22,201 nt of DNA from a virus. The position numbers and the translations under genes are program-made. Below the pieces are notes generated by a model. That model had not been told where the DNA came from, did no database searches, and saw only the letters and a program-made list of their open reading frames with translations. The stretch spans positions 1-22,201 of the IMG/VR virus record IMGVR_UViG_3300023184_000565; one strand, written 5' to 3'. Each line of letters starts with the position of its first letter. Position 1 is the first letter of the stretch. This document shows positions 8,127 through 19,564 of this stretch, one piece after another.

Positions 8127-8861
8127 ATGCAAGCATCAGTTCATTTCTTTGAAAATTCCGTCGAATCAAAAAAGAGGTTAAGAAAAAGAATCACAGAAGC
8201 ATCTACAAATTTTTCATTACTTAAAGTAGATCCAATTACGGAGAATCAAAAAAGGACGTTTGAAGCATTTAGATCAAACAAAAATTTGATGTTGCATGGA
8301 GTTGCAGGAACAGGTAAGACATTTATATCATTGTACCTCGCGCTAGAAATAGCATTGCTTGGTAAGAAGAATCACCCAGTAACAATTATTCGCTCAGTTG
8401 TTCCCACAAGAGATATTGGATTTCTTCCAGGCACGCTAGAAGAAAAGATTGCAGTATATGAGCAACCATATCATTCCTTGTGTTCTGAATTGTTCAATTT
8501 AAAGAATGCTTATTCAGAATTAAAGAAAAGAGGATTCGTAGATTTTTCAACAACTTCATTCCTTCGCGGCTTGACTTTCCATAACACAACAATTCTTGTT
8601 GATGAATGCCAAAATTTAAATTTTTCAGAACTAGACACAATTATGACCCGTTGTGGAGATGGATGCAGAATTATATTCTGTGGAGATTTTAGACAAACTG
8701 ATTTAAATAAACAAGACGAACGCGCAGGTCTCACTAAATTTATGAACGTAATAAAGTCTATGAACAGTTTTCAATTTATCGAGTTCAATAGAGAAGATAT
8801 TTGTCGATCTAAACTTGTTAAAGAATATATCAATGCCAAATTAAATTTTAATATTATGTGA
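8127..8861 (+). CDS. phoH: PhoH-like P-loop ATPase
   Basis: A good ribosome site (GAGGAGAAG) precedes ATG 8127. The 244-residue protein has Walker A GVAGTGKT (58-65), the motif SVVPTRDIGFLPGTLEEKI (about 90-108) that is characteristic of PhoH, and Walker B ILVDECQNL (about 156-164) followed by GDFRQTDL. PhoH proteins are widespread in tailed phages, especially marine T4-like ones. They are predicted RNA/DNA-dependent ATPases or helicases, and a phosphate-starvation role is known only for bacterial relatives. It is followed by a new promoter at 8871. Confidence 0.93.
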   Translation: MQASVHFFENSVESKKRLRKRITEASTNFSLLKVDPITENQKRTFEAFRSNKNLMLHGVAGTGKTFISLYLALEIALLGKKNHPVTIIRSVVPTRDIGFLPGTLEEKIAVYEQPYHSLCSELFNLKNAYSELKKRGFVDFSTTSFLRGLTFHNTTILVDECQNLNFSELDTIMTRCGDGCRIIFCGDFRQTDLNKQDERAGLTKFMNVIKSMNSFQFIEFNREDICRSKLVKEYINAKLNFNIM

Positions 8862-8904: not shown

Positions 8905-9567
8905 ATGAATAAATTTAAACATGATCTTGTGTCTCTTCCAGAAATTAAAGCAACTCAAACTGAGAACGGAAGATTTTATCTTGGATCTAGTGGACAGAAA
9001 TATGCATCAGTAACAACTGTTCTCGGTCGAAGGAAAGAAAAGCGGAAATCTCTAGCTGAGTGGCGTGAGCGAATTGGAAATGCAAACGCCAACAAAATTT
9101 CTGGAAGAGCATCTAGGCGAGGAACGTCTGTTCATAAATTGGTCGAACGATTTGTTATGAACGAGGAGATGGATCTCCGTAAAGAAATGCCACTAAATAT
9201 TGAAATGTTCAGATCCATCGAACCAATTATAGTGGAAAATTTGAAACTTGTTCGAGCAGTAGAAATAGGTCTGATATCAGACACACTAAGACTGGCTGGA
9301 AGAACAGATGTAATCGGAACGTGGAAAGAGTCTAATGCTGTAATTGATATCAAGACTTCTACTCGCGCGAAGGAAGAATCACAGATACTTGATTATTTTT
9401 TACAGTGCACCGCATATGCTATTATGTTTGAGGAAGCCACTGGTATAAAAACTCCAGATATTGTTGTAGCAATCGCTCTAGAAGATGGTGTACCGCAAAT
9501 TTTTGAGAAGAAAAGGGAGGACTATGAGCCAATTCTGATGGATTTTTTAGAGAAGTATAATAAATAG
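8905..9567 (+). CDS. RecB/Cas4-type PD-(D/E)xK exonuclease
   Basis: The 220-residue protein shows the RecB-family nuclease motifs in order: SVTTVL near residue 35, RGTSVHKLVE with His77, AGRTDVIG with Asp135, VIDIKTS with Asp148 and Lys150, and LQCTAYA with the Gln167/Tyr171 pair. Such nucleases act on single-stranded or end-resected DNA in recombination and replication. The start at 8905 is supported because the N-terminal SVTTVL region is part of the fold, yet no ribosome site precedes it; the mRNA appears leaderless. It lies next to PhoH. Family assignment is strong; the specific role is inferred. Confidence 0.85.
   Translation: MNKFKHDLVSLPEIKATQTENGRFYLGSSGQKYASVTTVLGRRKEKRKSLAEWRERIGNANANKISGRASRRGTSVHKLVERFVMNEEMDLRKEMPLNIEMFRSIEPIIVENLKLVRAVEIGLISDTLRLAGRTDVIGTWKESNAVIDIKTSTRAKEESQILDYFLQCTAYAIMFEEATGIKTPDIVVAIALEDGVPQIFEKKREDYEPILMDFLEKYNK
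9559..9566 (+). promoter_or_regulatory. T4-like late promoter candidate AATAAATA
   Basis: AATAAATA at the stop codon of the nuclease gene fits the NATAAATA late-promoter pattern of T4-like phages. It lies about 90 nt upstream of the exported peptide gene at 9658. The site is short and could be chance in AT-rich DNA. Confidence 0.35.
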
Positions 9568-9910: not shown

Positions 9911-10600
9911 ATGGCATCTACGACACTTGAATCATACTACACTGAAGCACCAGATAATTATAACATAAATGGCATTATTCATGTTGGTGCCAATAATGCG
10001 GAAGAATTTAATTTCTACGATAGGTTCCCTGGTCCGAAATTGTATTTTGAGCCTATTCCAAATGAGGCACAGAAGATTAAGAACAAAATTGGCGATGTTC
10101 CGCGGCGTGGAAATTGTCCTGTCACTGTCGAGGTTCTTGCGTGTGGATCACAAAATCTAGATAAAATTATACTACATGTTGCTACTAATGATGGAAATTC
10201 AAGCTCCATTCTAGATGGTAAAAATTCTGGACATTTTGCAAGATTTGGAATTGACACTCAATCGGACATTCTGGTAAAAATGGTTCGCCTCGACACATAT
10301 ATGGAAACTCATCTACAAGATCTCGAGAGACTCGGCGCGCCTCTACCACCGTATAATACATTGATAATCGACACTGAAGGTTATGATTTAGAGGTCCTCA
10401 AAGGTGCAGAAATTACTCTTAAAAGTATAAACTATCTCATGGTTGAAAGTTGGTCCGATAACTTCTTCATTGGCGCACCGACTTTCGATGAACAGAACAG
10501 CTGGATATTGTCTCGCGGATTTAAATTGATAAAGAGCGACTGGTTCGGTGGAGACAATCCGAGTTTCGGAAATCAGATCTATAAGCGAGATTCGATTTAG
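9911..10600 (+). CDS. FkbM-family methyltransferase
   Basis: The 229-residue protein has the SAM-binding loop IIHVGANNAEEF (about 22-33), the FEPIPNEA strand (46-53) and the FkbM signature LIIDTEGYDLEVLKGAE (about 151-167). FkbM enzymes transfer methyl groups to hydroxyls, often on sugars, and in phages and marine viruses are linked to glycan or surface modification. The ribosome site is weak, and a TTAAATA sequence upstream (9891-9897) may be a late promoter. The substrate is not predictable. The gene ends 34 nt before the tmRNA promoter. Confidence 0.85.
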   Translation: MASTTLESYYTEAPDNYNINGIIHVGANNAEEFNFYDRFPGPKLYFEPIPNEAQKIKNKIGDVPRRGNCPVTVEVLACGSQNLDKIILHVATNDGNSSSILDGKNSGHFARFGIDTQSDILVKMVRLDTYMETHLQDLERLGAPLPPYNTLIIDTEGYDLEVLKGAEITLKSINYLMVESWSDNFFIGAPTFDEQNSWILSRGFKLIKSDWFGGDNPSFGNQIYKRDSI

Positions 10601-10633
10601 TCCATCAATTGTAAAAACGATAAAATTTTGAAT

Positions 10634-10641
10634 TATAAATA
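10634..10641 (+). promoter_or_regulatory. T4-type late promoter TATAAATA upstream of the tmRNA
   Basis: A perfect match to the T4 late-promoter octamer. T4 late transcripts begin roughly 12 nt downstream of it, which would be around 10652-10654, exactly where the pairing part of the tmRNA acceptor piece begins (TGCTGT 10655-10660). A gp33-like co-activator is encoded at 16105 in the same window. Confidence 0.6.
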
Positions 10642-10876
10642 TGATGTTGGTTATTGCTGTATGAAGTGAAGTAAAAGGTGTTCTGGACGCGGGTTCGATT
10701 CCCGCCACCTCCACCAGTAAGCATTTTGATGCCTATTAGATTATAAGGTTGATCGCTTATAATACGGCGTGTGATGAGTGCTTACTGATGGGGGTGTCTA
10801 GGTTTCGACAGGGCAGACGAGTAGCGGAACAGACAGCACGTCAGGCGATCGACGTAAATGAAGCAAAACTATAAAT

Positions 10877-10921
10877 GCAAACGACGCATTTTACAATGAG
10901 GATCTTCGCCTAGCGGCGTAA
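10877..10921 (+). other. tmRNA tag reading frame ANDAFYNEDLRLAA
   Basis: GCA resume codon at 10877, then 14 codons and TAA at 10919-10921. The tag begins AND, as in many proteobacterial tmRNAs, and ends LAA, the ClpXP/ClpAP recognition end. A small hairpin (CGCC/GGCG, 10907-10918) and GAG/CTC around the stop resemble the P5 stem that usually holds the tag stop. Confidence 0.9.
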
Positions 10922-10936
10922 ACTCACGAGGATTTG

Positions 10937-10973
10937 CAGGTTGTTCCTTGTCATCAAAACAACCTGTGTTTTT
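10937..10973 (+). terminator. Intrinsic terminator of the tmRNA gene
   Basis: CAGGTTGTT (10937-10945) pairs perfectly with AACAACCTG (10958-10966), followed by TG and five T (10969-10973). It gives a clear 3' end for the coding piece precursor. Confidence 0.8.
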
Positions 10974-11040
10974 CATTTATTATTCCTAATCGTATTGAAG
11001 ACAGGAGTGATTTTGTCAAAAGAAGAGGAGGGAACACAAG

Positions 11041-11544
11041 ATGAAATATTTCATCGGATTTATAGTGGGCGTTCTATTCATAATATCATGCAGTCAATCC
11101 CCAACGACAGTCAGAGCAGAAGAAAATTTTACTGAGGTAGATATTAAACATGTAGAGTGTATGGCCAAGGCGATATATTTTGAATCGAAAGACGAACCAC
11201 TGGTTGGACAATTAGCTGTTGGTCTTGTTGTAAAGAATAGATCTATGAGTGACATATTTCCAAAGGATATATGCTCAGTTGTTTACGAAGGACCACAAGA
11301 TTCTAAAGGAAAGCCAATTCAGAATCGTTGTCAATTTTCTTGGTATTGTGATGGTCGACCAGAAAAGATTTTAGATATCGCGAAATGGGAGAGAGCGTTA
11401 TTTTTAGCTAAAGCGATTTTGATGGATAGAATTTTTGACTTCACTGATGGTGCATTATTCTTTCATAGCGTATCTGTGACTCCGAACTGGAAATTGAAAA
11501 AGATAGGATCTATAGGCAATCATATATTTTATAAGAAGGCTTAA
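11041..11544 (+). CDS. SleB-type cell wall hydrolase, exported or lipoprotein
   Basis: A very strong ribosome site (AGGAGG) lies 9 nt before ATG 11041. The N-terminus (MKYFIGFIVGVLFIISCSQS) is a signal peptide with a possible lipobox IISC, so the product may be lipid-anchored at Cys17. The core (CMAKAIYFESKDEPLVGQLA, then VGLVVKNRS, then QFSWYCDG and ALFFHS) matches the Hydrolase_2/SleB lytic transglycosylase domain, with the catalytic Glu in the IYFES motif. Such enzymes cleave peptidoglycan; in phages they act in lysis, entry, or as host-envelope remodelling genes. Its stop overlaps the start of the PP-loop gene (TAATG). Confidence 0.87.
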   Translation: MKYFIGFIVGVLFIISCSQSPTTVRAEENFTEVDIKHVECMAKAIYFESKDEPLVGQLAVGLVVKNRSMSDIFPKDICSVVYEGPQDSKGKPIQNRCQFSWYCDGRPEKILDIAKWERALFLAKAILMDRIFDFTDGALFFHSVSVTPNWKLKKIGSIGNHIFYKKA

Positions 11545-12710
11545 TGATAATAACTGCCGAAACTGCAAAGCACTTGTATAATACAGGATATTATAAATGT
11601 AACGATCAAATTTTCTATTCTAAAATTCAGGCTTGTATATATTCATCGTCAGTTAAGAAACCAATTACATGGATTTATAATGACGTAATCTTCAATAATT
11701 ATAATTGGACAATTGAACCGCAAGAAACATTAGATGAATTATATAACAAACGAGCAAGACAGTTACGGGAAAAATATGATTATCTAATAATAAGTTTCAG
11801 CGGCGGCGCGGATTCATACAACGTGGTGCAAAGTTTTATTAGACAAGGATTACACATTGATGAAATTGTTACAAATCATTTAACAAAGGGCACAGAAAAG
11901 TTAGTGGTCCTAGATAAGAAAGTAACTAATCCGTGGAACTTAAACGCGGAACATGAATTACAAGCAATTCCTCGATTAAAAGAAATACAAAATGCGTGTC
12001 CAAGAACTAAAATAACAGTGTTAGATACAACAGATACAGTTATGTCAGAGTTACAAGGAAAAAAAGACGAAGAATGGATACTTGAACGAAAAAGTAATCT
12101 AACTTTTGCTATGTTTTATAGATTTAATCATTTTCATTTTTCATCAGTCAAAAAACAATTTGATAAAAATATATCCATTGCCATAGTTACTGGGATTGAT
12201 AAACCCAGAACAGAAATGCACGGAAATAGATTATCTCTTACATTGAGCGATGCAGGTGCTGTTAGCTTTTCTGGTATTCACGATCATACCGAATACCCTA
12301 ATGCAAATATTGAGCATTTCTATTGGGGTTGTGATGGAATCAATATAATGTGCAAGCAAGCACATGTAATTAAGAATTGGTTAACGGTAAATAAAACTTA
12401 TCAATCATTGTGGAAAGATGTGACATTTGAAAAATGGGTCACAATCCTAGAACCTATCACAAAAGATATCATATACTCCACATGGAATCCGAGCTGGTTT
12501 CAAGTAAATAAAGCTACTGGTGGTTGGCATACTGAATTCGATAGATGGGCATATGCCCTAGCTGGAAATAAAGAATTAGCTGTTTGGAATGCAGGAATAC
12601 AGTATGTTGCTAAATCTGCCCCTGATTATATTCATTTAAATGATAAGGGAGATCCTGACCAGTTGACTGCCATTCGAAAGCATTTTTATATCGGACATAT
12701 TCCACAATAA
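11544..12710 (+). CDS. PP-loop (ATP pyrophosphatase) family protein, 388 aa
   Basis: Residues 79-91 (DYLIISFSGGADS) carry the SGGxDS PP-loop of ATP-adenylating enzymes such as asparagine synthetase, GMP synthetase, QueC and PAPS reductase relatives. It binds the pyrophosphate of ATP to activate a carboxyl, sulfate or similar group. A Trp/His-rich C-terminal half (HFYWGCDGINIMCKQAHVIK and later HTEFDRWAYALAG) has no family I recognise. No glutaminase domain is present, so any nitrogen or sulfur donor must come from elsewhere. It is translationally coupled to the SleB gene and followed by a late promoter/hairpin. The family call is good; the substrate is unknown. Confidence 0.75.
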   Translation: MIITAETAKHLYNTGYYKCNDQIFYSKIQACIYSSSVKKPITWIYNDVIFNNYNWTIEPQETLDELYNKRARQLREKYDYLIISFSGGADSYNVVQSFIRQGLHIDEIVTNHLTKGTEKLVVLDKKVTNPWNLNAEHELQAIPRLKEIQNACPRTKITVLDTTDTVMSELQGKKDEEWILERKSNLTFAMFYRFNHFHFSSVKKQFDKNISIAIVTGIDKPRTEMHGNRLSLTLSDAGAVSFSGIHDHTEYPNANIEHFYWGCDGINIMCKQAHVIKNWLTVNKTYQSLWKDVTFEKWVTILEPITKDIIYSTWNPSWFQVNKATGGWHTEFDRWAYALAGNKELAVWNAGIQYVAKSAPDYIHLNDKGDPDQLTAIRKHFYIGHIPQ

Positions 12711-12711
12711 G

Positions 12712-12746
12712 TATAAATAGTATATCTAAAATCGATATACTATTTA
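12712..12746 (+). promoter_or_regulatory. TATAAATA late promoter embedded in a 13-bp hairpin
   Basis: TATAAATA (12712-12719) overlaps the 5' arm of a perfect inverted repeat, TAAATAGTATATC (12714-12726) with 12734-12746 and loop 12727-12733. The hairpin ends 2 nt before the AAGGA ribosome site (12749-12753) of the gene at 12762. A late transcript starting near 12731 would lack the 5' arm, so only read-through RNA could form the hairpin. Confidence 0.7.
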
Positions 12747-12761
12747 ATAAGGAATTATTAC

Positions 12762-13742
12762 ATGTCAAATCCTCGAAAACTTACATGGCTTATCGCACAC
12801 GAACCAGTTGAACTGTTTCAACGCACGGTTGTGGCTTTTGCTGAAGAACTAGATAAGGTATTACCAGGACAATTTGAAATCAAAGCGTTAACAGTGCCTG
12901 AATATGTGGATATACATCCAGAGCTTAATGTGTTGAATACCATTAACGGTGGTGATTTAACGCGAAGAGATATAGCTACTGAGGCATTGTTTACTGCATT
13001 AAATGATGATATTGATTTAAGCCAAACACAAACGCATATTGTTGCAATGAAAAATCCTCTATTCCACCTTTTGGACATACCTTATTTGTTTACTGATCAT
13101 GATCATGTCAATAGGGTATTAGATGGTGACATTGGTGTAGATCTATGTTCTAATTTAGAAAAAACTAGTGATTTTAAAGCACTAGGATTTACTTATAGCG
13201 GTGGATATCGAGTTGTTGGTAGTAATCACAAGATCAATAACATTAAAGAGTTGGGTGAGCAAAAAGTTCTTGTAGCAACTCATTTAGGTCCTCGCACTAA
13301 GACTTTCGAAGTATTTGGATCAACCACGGTACCAGTCAGTCCACATCTTTGGGCAGGATATGATAATATATATGAAGGAACTGGTGCTACTGCTATTGAT
13401 ACAACATATTTGCGATTCAAAGGAACTCATATATTAAAAACCAATCATAGTTTATTTATTACCACTATCTTGTCATCTAAGAAATTTTGGACAACATTGA
13501 GTAACGAGCAACAGGATGCGTTCACTAAAATAGTTAAAACTGTAGCAATCATTGAACGAGAGTGGGCAATTGAAGAATCTGCTAAGTTTGAAAAAAAATT
13601 CAAAAATAATGGTGTTGAGTTTACTGAGCTTGATACGGCAAGTGATAAGATAATGAAATATATGTGTAAGAAAAAAGTTCATAGTTTTTACCAAAATCAC
13701 AAAGGATTTAAACCATTCATGGCGCGAATACAAAACAGTTAA
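12762..13742 (+). CDS. TRAP-type (DctP-like) solute-binding protein without signal peptide
   Basis: The 326-residue protein contains the DctP family hallmark NPLFHLLDIPYLFTDHDHVN followed by RVLDGDIG (about residues 105-130), where periplasmic TRAP receptors have the same PFLF-dyeha pattern. The later segments (ALGFTYSGGYRVVGSN, IKELGEQKVLVATHLGPRTK and LSNEQQDAFTKIVK) also follow the family order. Unlike true TRAP receptors it begins MSNPRKLTWLIAHEPVE with no signal peptide, and no membrane subunits are nearby. It may therefore bind a small acid in the cytoplasm or have another role. Ribosome site AAGGA is well placed. The next gene overlaps (TAATG). Confidence 0.82.
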   Translation: MSNPRKLTWLIAHEPVELFQRTVVAFAEELDKVLPGQFEIKALTVPEYVDIHPELNVLNTINGGDLTRRDIATEALFTALNDDIDLSQTQTHIVAMKNPLFHLLDIPYLFTDHDHVNRVLDGDIGVDLCSNLEKTSDFKALGFTYSGGYRVVGSNHKINNIKELGEQKVLVATHLGPRTKTFEVFGSTTVPVSPHLWAGYDNIYEGTGATAIDTTYLRFKGTHILKTNHSLFITTILSSKKFWTTLSNEQQDAFTKIVKTVAIIEREWAIEESAKFEKKFKNNGVEFTELDTASDKIMKYMCKKKVHSFYQNHKGFKPFMARIQNS

Positions 13743-14383
13743 TGAAAACTCTTTTGGTTATGACTGGACCGCAAGGCTCCGGAAACCACCTTTGGAGTAA
13801 AGTGTTAGCTGAAACTCCAAAGGTGTGTGGGTGGTCGGATTTATCTAAAACATACTGGATCAGCCACGCAACCGAACCGTTCGCTGAGTTATGGGAAAAT
13901 CCTCATTTATTTCAAACTACCACATTCCCATATGACTACTATGTGACTAGCATCAGTTGTCCGTATATGCCTAAGGGTAATTTTAAACTATATGATGAGG
14001 CTGGACGAGTAATACCAAAATATTTAGAATTTTTCGAACAAGCTAAACTTGCTGGATTTAATATTAAGCTGGTCGTTATTGGTCGTGAATTTAACATTCT
14101 TAATTTACAACAAAAACGATTACGAAACACTGTCACCACTCCTAGATTTATTGATCAGCTAGATTTACTATTAAAATATGATCCAGTATTCATTAGCACG
14201 GAATTATTATATCTATACCGAATGCATTACGTAAAGCAAATATCTAAACTGCTGGATTTTCCCATTGCTATTAGCCACGAATCGTTGGAAAATATTTTGA
14301 AGGATAATTCAAATCTTAAATACATTAAGCCAGCTGATGCTGAACAAGTTTGGTTGGATGATGTAATTAAAGGAAAGAAATGA
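13742..14383 (+). CDS. P-loop protein, sulfotransferase- or kinase-like (213 aa)
   Basis: The N-terminus MKTLLVMTGPQGSGNHLWSK has a P-loop in which the usual GK-T/S is replaced by GNHLW. This variant (GSGNHLW) resembles the PAPS-binding loop of sulfotransferase-like proteins seen in marine phages and bacteria, rather than a typical kinase. The rest (YYVTSISCPYMPKG..., KLVVIGREFNILNLQQKRLR) includes an IGRE-x-N-LQQKR region suitable for phosphate or PAPS contacts. Translation is coupled on both sides. Sulfotransferase is the favoured but unproven reading. Confidence 0.5.
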   Translation: MKTLLVMTGPQGSGNHLWSKVLAETPKVCGWSDLSKTYWISHATEPFAELWENPHLFQTTTFPYDYYVTSISCPYMPKGNFKLYDEAGRVIPKYLEFFEQAKLAGFNIKLVVIGREFNILNLQQKRLRNTVTTPRFIDQLDLLLKYDPVFISTELLYLYRMHYVKQISKLLDFPIAISHESLENILKDNSNLKYIKPADAEQVWLDDVIKGKK

Positions 14384-15243
14384 AAAATTTGTTGTGTGTG
14401 TTGTTGTTGTTAAGCTCAATAAATGCAATAGCAAAGGAAACGGTTCAGGTAGTATTTCCATTTCTCGTTGCTCCTGTATTTGGTCACAAACTTATTGAAG
14501 AAGCAAATAAAATTCAAAACGACTGGCACTTTATTATAGTCCCAAAAACAGGAGCGGGTGGCGAAATAGCAATTAATAATGTAATTAATAATAAAAATAA
14601 AACATTATTAATGACCAATAGTAGTTTTTTTATTAGATCATCAATATACGCTAAAAGCAGTTCTACTGAGTCGCAGTTTAGACTAGTAATATCTCAATGT
14701 GATCAACCAATGGTAGTTATCAGTAAAAAATACAAAGAATTTTCTGATATAGATAAATCACAACGTCTAACTGTTGGAGTGAGTGGACTTGGCACAACCA
14801 CACATTTAGTGGCGTCGGAGCTAATGAAAAAATTTCCAAATATCACAGTTATTCCTTATAATGGAACTTCAGATACATTGAAAGCAGTATTGAGTGATGA
14901 AGTTGATATTTCAATTGGTTTTATTAAACAATGGCAAGGGTCTATCGAAGCAGGATATGTAAATGCATTAGGACTCACTGGAAGCATTCCATATTTACGT
15001 ATTCCTTTAATGTTTGAGATGTCAAATATTACAAACAATTATTTCCTAGCGTCATATACAAACACTTCATTGCAAATTTATGAAGAATGGAAAAAAATAT
15101 TTGAACAAGTAAATGTTTCCTCCACTATTCAAACCAGTTATAAAGATGAGTTTTGTACTCCAATAAAAAGTAGTTCTACATGGATTAATGATCAGCAACA
15201 ACATTGGAAAAAATTGACTAAAGACGTAAAAGTAGAACAATAA
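14380..15243 (+). CDS. TctC/Bug-type periplasmic solute-binding protein
   Basis: The 287-residue protein starts with a clear signal peptide (MKNLLCVLLLLSSINAIA, cleavage near residue 18). The segments VPKTGAGGEIAINNVI, TVGVSGLGTTTHLVASELMK and IPYNGTSDTLKAVLSDEVDI are hallmarks of the tripartite tricarboxylate transporter receptors (TctC/Bug), which capture carboxylic acids in the periplasm. It lacks accompanying TctA/TctB membrane genes. The start overlaps the previous stop (ATGA) with AAAGGA upstream. A second solute-binding protein of a different family lies two genes upstream, which is unusual for a phage. Family confident, ligand unknown. Confidence 0.83.
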   Translation: MKNLLCVLLLLSSINAIAKETVQVVFPFLVAPVFGHKLIEEANKIQNDWHFIIVPKTGAGGEIAINNVINNKNKTLLMTNSSFFIRSSIYAKSSSTESQFRLVISQCDQPMVVISKKYKEFSDIDKSQRLTVGVSGLGTTTHLVASELMKKFPNITVIPYNGTSDTLKAVLSDEVDISIGFIKQWQGSIEAGYVNALGLTGSIPYLRIPLMFEMSNITNNYFLASYTNTSLQIYEEWKKIFEQVNVSSTIQTSYKDEFCTPIKSSSTWINDQQQHWKKLTKDVKVEQ

Positions 15244-15244
15244 A

Positions 15245-16039
15245 ATGACACAACGTATATTAATCATGGGTTTGCCTGGTTCTGGTAAAACAACATTGGC
15301 AACTGGTTTAAAAAATAAATTAGAAACGGATGGAAAAACGGTAACTTGGTTCAATGCCGACGAGATCCGTAAACGATTTAACGATTGGGACTTTAGCGAA
15401 GCAGGACGTATACGTCAAAGTAAACGTATGTTTGATCTAACAGTTTATGAATGCGAAACAGATTATGCATTGTGTGACTTTGTCGCACCATTAGTTGAAA
15501 TGCGTAACAATTTTAAAGCTGACTGGACAATTTGGATGGACACTATCCGCGAAAGTCGCTATGCTGATACTAATGCTGCATTTATTGAACCTGAAGTATA
15601 CGACTTTCGTGTCATAGAACAAGATGCTGAAAAGTGGACTGAGTTCATTGGTGATCATATCTTTGAGAACAGTCGACGTCCTATCTTTGATTGGAAGAAA
15701 GAAACTGTGCAGATGTTAGGTCGGTGGCAACCATGGCATGAAGGACATCGTGCATTATTTGACCGTTTAATTGCTCGAACTGGACAAGTGATTATTCAAA
15801 TACGTGATGTTCAGGGATGGCAAGGTAGTAATCCATTCGAAGTAGAAAAAGTCAAAAGATTTATCAAGCGTGATCTAGATCCTATATATCAAGGACAATA
15901 CGAAATACAAATCGTTCCTAACATTGTGCATATTGGTTGGGGTCGCGGAGTAGGATACACAAGTGGAGAAGAAATGTTTGATGAAAAAATAACTAGTATC
16001 AGTGCTACGAAGATTAGAAAGAGTCTTGGAATCAAGTAA
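15245..16039 (+). CDS. Fusion of CysC-like kinase and HxGH nucleotidyltransferase
   Basis: Residues 1-145 resemble adenylylsulfate (APS) kinase: Walker A GLPGSGKTT (9-17), WFNADEIRKRFNDWDF (35-50) like the CysC DGDxxR region, and DFVAPLVEMR (78-87). Residues 155-264 carry GRWQPWHEGH (159-168) and ISATKIR (252-258), the two nucleotide-binding signatures of the nucleotidylyltransferase superfamily (NMN adenylyl- or cytidylyltransferases). The protein could phosphorylate a small molecule and then attach a nucleotide, or act in PAPS or NAD supply. Gene order kinase then transferase is the reverse of bacterial NadR. Substrates cannot be read from sequence. Confidence 0.8.
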   Translation: MTQRILIMGLPGSGKTTLATGLKNKLETDGKTVTWFNADEIRKRFNDWDFSEAGRIRQSKRMFDLTVYECETDYALCDFVAPLVEMRNNFKADWTIWMDTIRESRYADTNAAFIEPEVYDFRVIEQDAEKWTEFIGDHIFENSRRPIFDWKKETVQMLGRWQPWHEGHRALFDRLIARTGQVIIQIRDVQGWQGSNPFEVEKVKRFIKRDLDPIYQGQYEIQIVPNIVHIGWGRGVGYTSGEEMFDEKITSISATKIRKSLGIK

Positions 16040-16073: not shown

Positions 16074-16104
16074 AGTTATAATAATCACAATGGAGTGCGG
16101 TTCT

Positions 16105-16356
16105 ATGGAACAATCTGAAGGGCTTGATGAATTAAATTTTATCACCCAAGAAAAATTTCTTGATCTAGTCGAGACATATGTTAAGACGAAAAAGATGTCT
16201 TATATGGAGGCCATCGTATATGTTTGTGAAGAAATTAAGTTAGAGTATGAAAGTGTTCCAAAATTGATCAATATCAAAATGAAACGATTGATTAAGAACG
16301 AAGCACTATCTAATAACATGTTAAAAAAGAAAAAGTCTGCGAGGTTACCGATTTGA
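16105..16356 (+). CDS. 33: Late-promoter transcription co-activator (T4 gp33-like)
   Basis: ATG 16105 is chosen over in-frame ATG 16090 because GGAGTG (16092-16097) is then a correctly spaced ribosome site. The 83-residue protein (ITQEKFLDLVETYVKTKKMS, YMEAIVYVCEEIKLEYESV, LIKNEALSNNMLKKKKSARL) matches the pattern of gp33 in T4-like phages, in particular the MSY-EAI-VCEE and EALS-N-L segments. gp33 links RNA polymerase beta-flap to the sliding clamp and is needed for late transcription. Its position upstream of gp59 and gp32 matches the T4 order. It is shorter than T4 gp33 (112 aa) but similar to cyanophage versions. Confidence 0.75.
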   Translation: MEQSEGLDELNFITQEKFLDLVETYVKTKKMSYMEAIVYVCEEIKLEYESVPKLINIKMKRLIKNEALSNNMLKKKKSARLPI

Positions 16357-17026: not shown

Positions 17027-17626
17027 ATGGAAGGCACAAAAGCATATACAAGATATCTCGCGTTGAAGCTACACTTCACGACGGACTATGATTATTTTCG
17101 TTATGGTGGAAAGACACGCGCAATGACGAATGAATCTTTCGAGAAGAGAAAGGACACATTCTTTTTTCGAAAAATAGAAAGACGATATAACGATCAAGAA
17201 TTAACAGATTTTTTTGTTTCTAATTTTGTCGACAATAATAAAACAAAATGGATCGGAGAATTATCAAACGTCAATGCAGAAAAAACTTATGCGAATTGGA
17301 AGAAAAGAATTCAATCCTTTTCATATACATTTGAGCAAGATCTGTTGATTGCGAAAGAAAAACTTCACACAGCTAATCCTGCAGAACTTTGGGAATCAGT
17401 AGCAGGTGGACATCCAGAAATTCTTAAATTATATCTTGGTAAAAAGATAAGTATCGAAACTCTTGTCGGATCTAATATTGTTTTAAACTATCTACCCAAA
17501 TGGGATCGCGAAATAAAGGATACTATCATTTGGCCGGATGTGAGTAAATCTATTCGTAAATATAGTCCATTCATACATATGAATAAGATGGATCTGACAA
17601 AAATAATTAAGAAAGTTTTTCTATAA
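17027..17626 (+). CDS. 59: Replicative helicase loader (T4 gp59-like)
   Basis: The 199-residue protein follows T4 gp59 (217 aa) along its length: YDYFRYGGKTRAMTNESFEK with RKDTFFFRKIERRY near the N-terminus, FVSNFVDNNKTKWIGELSNV in the middle, and a C-terminal helical half (AELWESVAGGHPEILKLYLG). T4 gp59 binds fork DNA and gp32 and loads the gp41 helicase. The location near gp33 and gp32 matches T4. No ribosome site precedes the ATG; the transcript is probably leaderless. Confidence comes from sequence pattern and gene order together. Confidence 0.8.
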   Translation: MEGTKAYTRYLALKLHFTTDYDYFRYGGKTRAMTNESFEKRKDTFFFRKIERRYNDQELTDFFVSNFVDNNKTKWIGELSNVNAEKTYANWKKRIQSFSYTFEQDLLIAKEKLHTANPAELWESVAGGHPEILKLYLGKKISIETLVGSNIVLNYLPKWDREIKDTIIWPDVSKSIRKYSPFIHMNKMDLTKIIKKVFL

Positions 17627-18606: not shown

Positions 18607-18679
18607 ATAATGCAGCACATGGTAGTTAGTGGTTAAGAAAACATACTTCGAATCATACTCAAAATACAAGGAATATTAT

Positions 18680-19564
18680 ATGGCAGAATCATTTGCATCA
18701 CTGAAACGCTCGCGCGACACTTCAATGGATCGCCTCACTAAAGAACTTGATAAGTTCACCAACACAACCAAAAAGAACGAAGACGATCGCTTCTGGAAAG
18801 CAGAAGTAGATAAGAGTGGTAACGGCTACGCAGTTATCCGTTTTCTTCCCGCACCTCAGGGTGAAGATCTTCCGTGGGTTCGCTTGTGGAATCATGGTTT
18901 CCAAGGTCCTGGTGGTTGGTATATCGAAAACTCGCTGACAACTCTCAATCAGAAAGATCCTGCTGGTGAGTTGAATAGTAAGTTGTGGAACAGCGGAAAT
19001 GAGAAAGATAAAGAAACTGCTCGCAAACAAAAGCGTCGGTTGAATTATGTTACTAACATTTACGTTGTGAAAGATCCAGCACATCCGGAAACTGAAGGAA
19101 AAGTGTTTCTCTATAAGTTTGGTAAAAAGATTTTCGACAAGCTGAATGAGAAAATGAATCCGGAGTTTGAGGATGAGAAAGCAATCAATCCTTTCGATCT
19201 TTGGAATGGTGCGAACTTCAAGCTGAAGATTCGTAATGTTGAAGGCTATCGTAATTATGACAAATCAGAATTCGATGATGTAAGTCCATTAGCAGAAGAA
19301 GAAGAATTGGAACGTATTTGGAAGTCCGAGTATCCTCTTTCGCCGCTAGTTGCTCCTGATCAGTTCAAATCGTATGCTGAATTGTCAGCGCGTCTGGATA
19401 AAGTTTTGAATACTGGCGCTGCAATATCTGAGGAAGATATGCCAACATTCGAAACACGTGCAGTTCCAAAAACAGCAGAAGCCAAGTCGCTTCCTTCTAA
19501 AAACGCTGTTCATGAAGACGAAGATGACACATTGGCTATGTTCGAAAAATTGGCTCGAGACTAG
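18680..19564 (+). CDS. 32: Single-stranded DNA-binding protein (T4 gp32-like), cysteine-free
   Basis: ATG 18680 follows AAGGAATAT; the upstream in-frame GTG (18629) would add 17 leader-derived residues and is rejected. The 294-residue protein matches T4 gp32 (301 aa). It has a basic N-terminus (SLKRSRDTSMDRLTKEL) like the cooperativity domain. The core runs through GYAVIRFLP, NHGFQGPGGWYIE, NIYVVKDPAHPETEGKVFLY, KFGKKIFDKLNEKM and WNGANFKLKIRNVEGYRNYD, and the acidic C-terminal tail is HEDEDDTLAMFEKLARD. T4 gp32 holds zinc with one His and three Cys; here the corresponding stretch (ENSLTTLNQKDPAGELNSKL) has none, and the protein has no Cys at all. It coats ssDNA during replication and recombination. 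Confidence 0.93.
   Translation: MAESFASLKRSRDTSMDRLTKELDKFTNTTKKNEDDRFWKAEVDKSGNGYAVIRFLPAPQGEDLPWVRLWNHGFQGPGGWYIENSLTTLNQKDPAGELNSKLWNSGNEKDKETARKQKRRLNYVTNIYVVKDPAHPETEGKVFLYKFGKKIFDKLNEKMNPEFEDEKAINPFDLWNGANFKLKIRNVEGYRNYDKSEFDDVSPLAEEEELERIWKSEYPLSPLVAPDQFKSYAELSARLDKVLNTGAAISEEDMPTFETRAVPKTAEAKSLPSKNAVHEDEDDTLAMFEKLARD

Follow-up and report, generated by a model that had tools for sequence, protein, structure and literature searches.

A permuted, two-piece tmRNA gene of betaproteobacterial type in a recurrent genomic slot of T4-like phages

The window, i.e., the whole stretch of DNA analysed here, comprises positions 1 to 22,201 of IMG/VR virus record IMGVR_UViG_3300023184_000565 (22,201 nt). 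The T4-like gene surroundings that had been read from the letters were recovered by family searches, and the genes for PhoH, a PDDEXK exonuclease, dNMP kinase, gp59 and gp32 assign the window, as judged from its gene content, to a water-borne T4-like phage. Its gp32 is closest to those of Pelagibacter phage HTVC008M, marine cyanomyoviruses and Methylophilales phage Melnitz (about 60%). Between these markers lies a permuted tmRNA gene, in the order PhoH, PDDEXK nuclease, tmRNA, cell-wall hydrolase, gp33, gp59, gp32 (Table 1).

Table 1. Features of the tmRNA gene and of its genomic slot in the window
Feature	Position	Strand	Evidence
PhoH, upstream slot marker	8127-8861	+	PF02562 1e-42
PDDEXK nuclease, upstream slot marker	8905-9567	+	PF12705; phrog_298 3e-57
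Promoter-like element (putative): T4-late-type TATAAATA overlapping -10-like TATGAT	10634-10641; 10640-10645	+	sequence, relatives' spacing
Permuted tmRNA gene (precursor)	10652-10968 (approximate edges)	+	Rfam, ARAGORN, L030 alignment, 3' pseudoknot stem
Acceptor piece (3' half of tRNA-like domain), CCA 10714-10716	10652-10716	+	sequence, covariance-model alignment
P2, acceptor-piece strand GCTGT (partner 10833-10837)	10656-10660	+	covariation
T arm GCGGG-TTCGATT-CCCGC	10689-10705	+	covariance model
Acceptor stem, 3' strand CACCTCC, U70 at 10710	10706-10712	+	sequence, covariance model
IVS helix, left arm, 12 bp, takes in C75 and A76 of CCA	10715-10726	+	fold, covariation
Intervening segment (IVS), 73 nt, putatively excised	10717-10789	+	sequence; PMC3985003
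IVS helix, right arm	10776-10787	+	fold, covariation
Coding piece: acceptor stem, D-loop-like stretch, tag, 3' pseudoknot	10790-10968	+	sequence, covariance model, pseudoknot survey
Acceptor stem, 5' strand GGGGGTG	10790-10796	+	sequence
D-loop-like GGTTTCGAC	10801-10809	+	sequence, covariance model
P2, coding-piece strand ACAGC	10833-10837	+	covariation
Tag frame ANDAFYNEDLRLAA-stop, resume codon GCA at 10877	10877-10921	+	ARAGORN and separate extraction
3' H-type pseudoknot: stem 10937-10945/10958-10966; second stem 10926-10931/10946-10951	10926-10966	+	second stem by inspection
Cell wall hydrolase, downstream slot marker	11041-11544	+	PF07486 6e-20
gp33-like late-transcription coactivator, slot marker	16090-16356	+	32% match, Melnitz gene 90 (annotated late-transcription coactivator)
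gp59 helicase loader, slot marker	17027-17626	+	PF08993 3e-14
gp32 single-strand binding protein, slot marker	18629-19564	+	PF08804 2e-42; 60% identical to HTVC008M

Several further genes surround the slot markers. An FkbM methyltransferase gene (9911-10600) lies directly left of the tmRNA, and positions 11544-15243 hold a PP-loop-motif protein (SGGADS), a DctP-type TRAP receptor (PF03480 3e-24) and a TctC-type receptor (PF03401 5e-11). The IMG/VR contig 3300010885_033323 (L030) carries the same tag in the same slot and is 96% identical to the window over tmRNA and hydrolase, but it lacks both the FkbM gene, with the break at the tmRNA edge, and the PP-loop/DctP/TctC block; the presence or absence of FkbM points to a recent insertion or deletion. 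Another contig (L052) has all three proteins of the block as distant homologues (32-34%), in the same order and 1-3 kb before its tmRNA. The product of 15245-16039 has a kinase-like N-terminal part (APS kinase family, 8e-10) and a C-terminal part that is nucleotidyltransferase-like by eye, and a 60% identical relative is found near the tmRNA of L028.

The sequence-only reading had proposed a permuted, two-piece tmRNA gene on a phage and had named covariance models and ARAGORN as the check, and both bear it out. The Rfam model RF04321 (tmRNA_permuted) matches at 10655-10921(+) with 144.2 bits (E 7e-29) and RF01850 (beta_tmRNA) at 10615-10953 with 124.8 bits (E 5e-38), exceeding the gathering cut-offs of 47 and 84 bits, respectively, while ARAGORN independently reports a permuted tmRNA (tmRNA*) at 10624-11012 with the tag ANDAFYNEDLRLAA; these matches are not due to chance. 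The gene order is permuted, with the CCA-ending acceptor half (10706-10716) 5' of the GGGGGTG half (10790-10796), and the 7-bp acceptor stem with G3.U70 that had been proposed from the two halves is formed by CACCTCC-A-CCA and GGGGGTG. The gene thus has the order of the halves, the score, G3.U70 with the T arm, and the tag with its degron that define permuted tmRNA (RF04321/RF01850), together with the evolutionarily supported pairing between the pieces (P2 and an acceptor pair) and 3' pseudoknot. Its left edge was placed at about 10651, where the similarity of L030 to the window restarts past the FkbM gene, and its right edge by the conserved 3' pseudoknot stem. The 335 nt around the tmRNA fold 2.9 standard deviations more stably than shuffles.

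The predicted 9-bp helix of the spacer was found as described, since CAGTAAGCA (10715-10723) and TGCTTACTG (10779-10787) are exactly reverse-complementary, and wobbles continue the pairing to 12 bp. As had also been anticipated, the helix prolongs the acceptor stem: the minimum-energy fold shows a nearly continuous rod made up of the acceptor pairs, A73-U(-1), one C.A mismatch and the 12-bp IVS helix. When IMG/VR was scanned for halves in permuted order separated by 55-85 nt, at least 119 stretches were found, dereplicated at the level of identical sequences. The scan pattern required GGGG/CTCC at the acceptor ends and prescribed the IVS length and a large part of the T loop, and the conservation of these among the matches is therefore a product of the search; the IVS helix, pair 5-68, P2, the tag and the 3' stem were unconstrained. 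Further viral scans found 39 contigs with an IVS of 25-54 nt and 21 with an IVS of 0-24 nt. In 97 distinct phage spacers among the matches listed, 10.6 of the 12 helix positions are paired on average versus 7.75 when arms are swapped between phages, and at the variable positions +4 to +9 of the same spacers 92% are paired versus 59% in mated arms (maximum 65%). Single pairs are realised by several standard pair types across the phages of the matches listed. The IVS helix is real and covarying. It is not phage-specific, a possibility that we ruled out because Thauera carries a short version. In sampled bacterial beta genes (Accumulibacter, Thauera, others) the IVS measures 1-4 or 29-42 nt versus 73 nt in the window; a pattern search of genome contigs with a 32-62 nt spacer gave no match, and the sampled bacterial beta genes mostly differ from this pattern in length or letters. 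Permuted bacterial tmRNA precursors are thought to be cut into two pieces (PMC3985003, PMC11915505), according to the former by tRNA-processing enzymes. The helix alone does not demonstrate cleavage, and we infer the processing of the phage precursor into two RNAs.

The unconstrained elements outside the spacer tell the same. The P2 pairing common to both halves, likewise foreseen in the sequence-only reading, has five pairs that are 90-97% paired across phages among the matches listed, compensatory changes included, and most pairs are lost when a strand is slid by 1-2 columns. Acceptor pair 5-68 is paired in all 120 phage sequences listed, as G-C, A-U or C-G in 119. The 3' pseudoknot stem is present in 79 of 85 phages among the matches listed, with 55 distinct stem sequences, as against 18% in shuffles. 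Of 107 phage tags extracted from the matches listed independently of ARAGORN, 104 have the terminal -AA, and 12 tag peptides each occur with two or three DNA sequences that differ by synonymous codons. The covarying IVS helix, P2 and 3' stem and the kept tag degron therefore argue that a working two-piece tmRNA is under selection, the traces of which are seen in the tag, the joints of the two pieces and the precursor helix.

These features also weigh on the idea of a competitive decoy, in which the phage RNA would serve mainly to titrate SmpB or ribosomes of the host and to damp its trans-translation. Such an RNA is expected to bind SmpB and is made by phages in which SmpB was not detected, and tmRNA is reported to be inhibited by an RNA that resembles that of mycobacteriophage DS6A and consists of the tRNA-like domain only (PMC4131195, PMC11915505). 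However, a decoy would need no tag, whereas synonymous and compensatory changes have left the tag frame, degron and 3' pseudoknot intact; we consider a decoy highly improbable and rejected it on account of these conserved elements.

Some tags are unusual in themselves. Two permuted tmRNAs (L031, L114) have a tag frame of 29 aa ending in LAV (AKANTGEVTVSGKNVKFSARTAQRQSLAV and a close variant) in place of the usual 10-14 aa with an AA end, and the tags of L093, L309 and L314 end in LKVA instead of LAA. In the bacterial order of Accumulibacter, a one-piece tmRNA (L221) has the tag ANDSFYGESRLAA, which resembles the phage tags ANDAFYGEDRLAA and ANDAFYNEDLRLAA.

The genomic place of the gene is as telling as its structure. 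Where IMG/VR contigs include the flanking genes, PDDEXK, tmRNA, cell-wall hydrolase, gp33, gp59 and gp32 recur in this order and in one orientation, and the tmRNA of the window lies likewise between PDDEXK and gp33/gp59/gp32 on the same strand. To keep the slot sample independent of the tmRNA, contigs were drawn by their PDDEXK protein and a slot was taken as complete when gp33, gp59 or gp32 was also seen (n = 43). A downstream tmRNA is present in 29 of the 43 complete slots, always permuted and never one-piece, in a sample that leans towards relatives of tmRNA bearers because the query alignment came mostly from tmRNA-bearing phages. About one third of the complete slots have no tmRNA, which is therefore not essential to every member of the lineage. 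All 15 slot contigs run against Rfam pass RF04321; by type, L321, L322, L392, L393 and others are alpha, while L327, L341 and L380 are beta. The occurrence of both types in one neighbourhood indicates replacement in place, or old divergence, on top of vertical descent. The distances between tmRNAs correlate more weakly with those between flanking proteins (Mantel r 0.19-0.50) than the flanking proteins do among themselves (0.55-0.84), thus recombination or replacement probably occurred. In one of the alpha-type contigs, a manA RNA directly follows the tmRNA (L392 6454-6630).

A fixed genomic place across a large phage lineage makes the tmRNA look like a standing viral part and not a lone acquisition. 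The sequence-only reading had envisaged a striking acquisition from an alphaproteobacterium, cyanobacterium or betaproteobacterium; the betaproteobacterial type holds (RF01850), whereas the isolated event does not, given a slot common to many phages and the report of permuted phage tmRNAs in 2022 (PMC9004378). Phage tmRNAs tend to be catalogued as rare curiosities; here, most complete slots of a T4-like lineage hold one. The same conservation contradicts a relic, left by integration or by transduction of host DNA, in which a decaying ssrA copy was caught by chance. The gene ssrA is often an integration site and its fragments occur in prophages (PMC9004378), but the phage gene is whole, sits in a fixed slot in dozens of T4-like contigs, and shows strong covariation and a conserved degron, and none of the families found in the window is an integrase. 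We therefore rejected both a host relic and an integration remnant, to which we give next to no chance.

The TATGAT of the window stands at the same distance from the tmRNA as the -10 element of relatives, and no sigma-70 match with a -35 element was found upstream of the tmRNA in the window. Among the matches listed, a sigma-70-like -10 element at fixed spacing precedes the tmRNA in 22 of 75 phage upstream regions (7.5 in shuffles) and a -10 plus a -35 element in 17 of 75 (1.1 in shuffles); L030 has no -10 element at the position of the window's TATGAT. The window's own putative tmRNA promoter is weak by consensus. With TATGAT overlapping the T4-late-type TATAAATA, the tmRNA may thus be transcribed late, early or by read-through from upstream. 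Timing matters for the proposal, put forward for Melnitz (PMC9004378), that a functional tmRNA benefits the phage chiefly through proteolysis and not rescue, by early tagging of host proteins that recycles amino acids. The strictly kept proteolysis tag agrees with it, but the promoter element of the window looks as T4-late as early. Trans-translation tags anything on stalled ribosomes, and we know of no preference for host proteins, so that proteolysis as the chief benefit seems improbable to us.

We consider it very probable, from the sequence marks described, that the gene encodes a functional phage-resident permuted tmRNA of betaproteobacterial type, which would rescue ribosomes during infection with SmpB, AlaRS and proteases of the host. 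A search that recovered SmpB in 10 of 14 control genomes detected none in 44 distinct phage records, which include fragments. A single precursor would be transcribed, in which the IVS helix could keep the two halves together while host tRNA-processing nucleases cut out the IVS. The products would be an acceptor piece with its CCA end near 10716 and a coding piece from G10790, held by the acceptor stem and P2. Host AlaRS may charge this RNA via G3.U70, and host SmpB and EF-Tu may bring it to ribosomes stalled on cut mRNAs; the sequence marks for alanylation and SmpB binding are present. Translation would restart at GCA 10877, the product tagged with ANDAFYNEDLRLAA would be degraded by host proteases, and the ribosome could be released for phage translation, to the presumed benefit of the phage. 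A bolder extension, which we regard as rather doubtful, is that the slot is a long-term viral ribosome-rescue module in which alpha and beta types are exchanged in place to suit the host, the long covarying helix times maturation, and the phage controls trans-translation. Why a phage needs its own ribosome rescue is testable in isolates, i.e., Melnitz on OM43 and Moby on Stenotrophomonas, and the slot markers allow more such tmRNAs to be found.

Permuted phage tmRNAs as such are already known. According to PMC9004378, 53 of 133 unique phage tmRNA structures are two-piece, 50 of them marine or aquatic, and 17 of 47 Melnitz-related contigs carry a two-piece tmRNA; the tmRNA database holds 79 phage sequences (PMC11915505). 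In the literature consulted on phage tmRNAs, we found no functional test of a permuted one, nor a statement of what we regard as new here, i.e., the fixed slot and how prevalent it is across the wider lineage, its occupation by both alpha and beta types, and the covariation of the spacer helix. Compared with betaproteobacterial tmRNA, the gene of the window matches RF01850/RF04321 at full length above the gathering score, whereas sampled bacterial beta tags are mostly ANDERFALAA and its own is ANDAFYNEDLRLAA. In the order of Accumulibacter the permuted form is a minority, with 3 of 60 genomes passing the cut-off of the permuted model. In a poorly resolved tmRNA tree of 146 columns, from which alpha genes, Melnitz and the cyanophage were left out as unfit for the sequence-cutting pattern, most bacterial beta genes cluster together, and the only companions of the window are phage sequences; because of this poor resolution we name no donor. 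The Stenotrophomonas Menderavirus phages (Moby, IME-SM1, Bhz51) resemble the window in a permuted tmRNA that is beta by Rfam, with similar IVS length and the same helix register. Theirs, however, lies in another slot, in a tRNA cluster beside ribonucleotide reductase, has the tag VAANDDSYTVRIAA (ARAGORN) and is about 77% identical to the window over 36% of the query. The ssrA of Melnitz EXVC044M (MZ577097), a two-piece tmRNA published in 2022 (PMC9004378), is permuted like that of the window and shares its slot between PDDEXK and gp33/gp59/gp32, with the gene order PhoH, PDDEXK, tmRNA, gp33, gp59, gp32. It is alpha-type (RF01849, 106.7 bits), while the window is beta-type, and it has the tag ANDNYVPVDYALAA in place of ANDAFYNEDLRLAA and a longer IVS. 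In Melnitz the tmRNA is directly followed by a glutamine riboswitch (L258 13616-13664), whereas the Rfam search detected no riboswitch in the window, which thus departs from the Melnitz-style pairing of alpha type and glutamine riboswitch; the cell wall hydrolase lies upstream of the tmRNA in Melnitz and downstream of it in the window.
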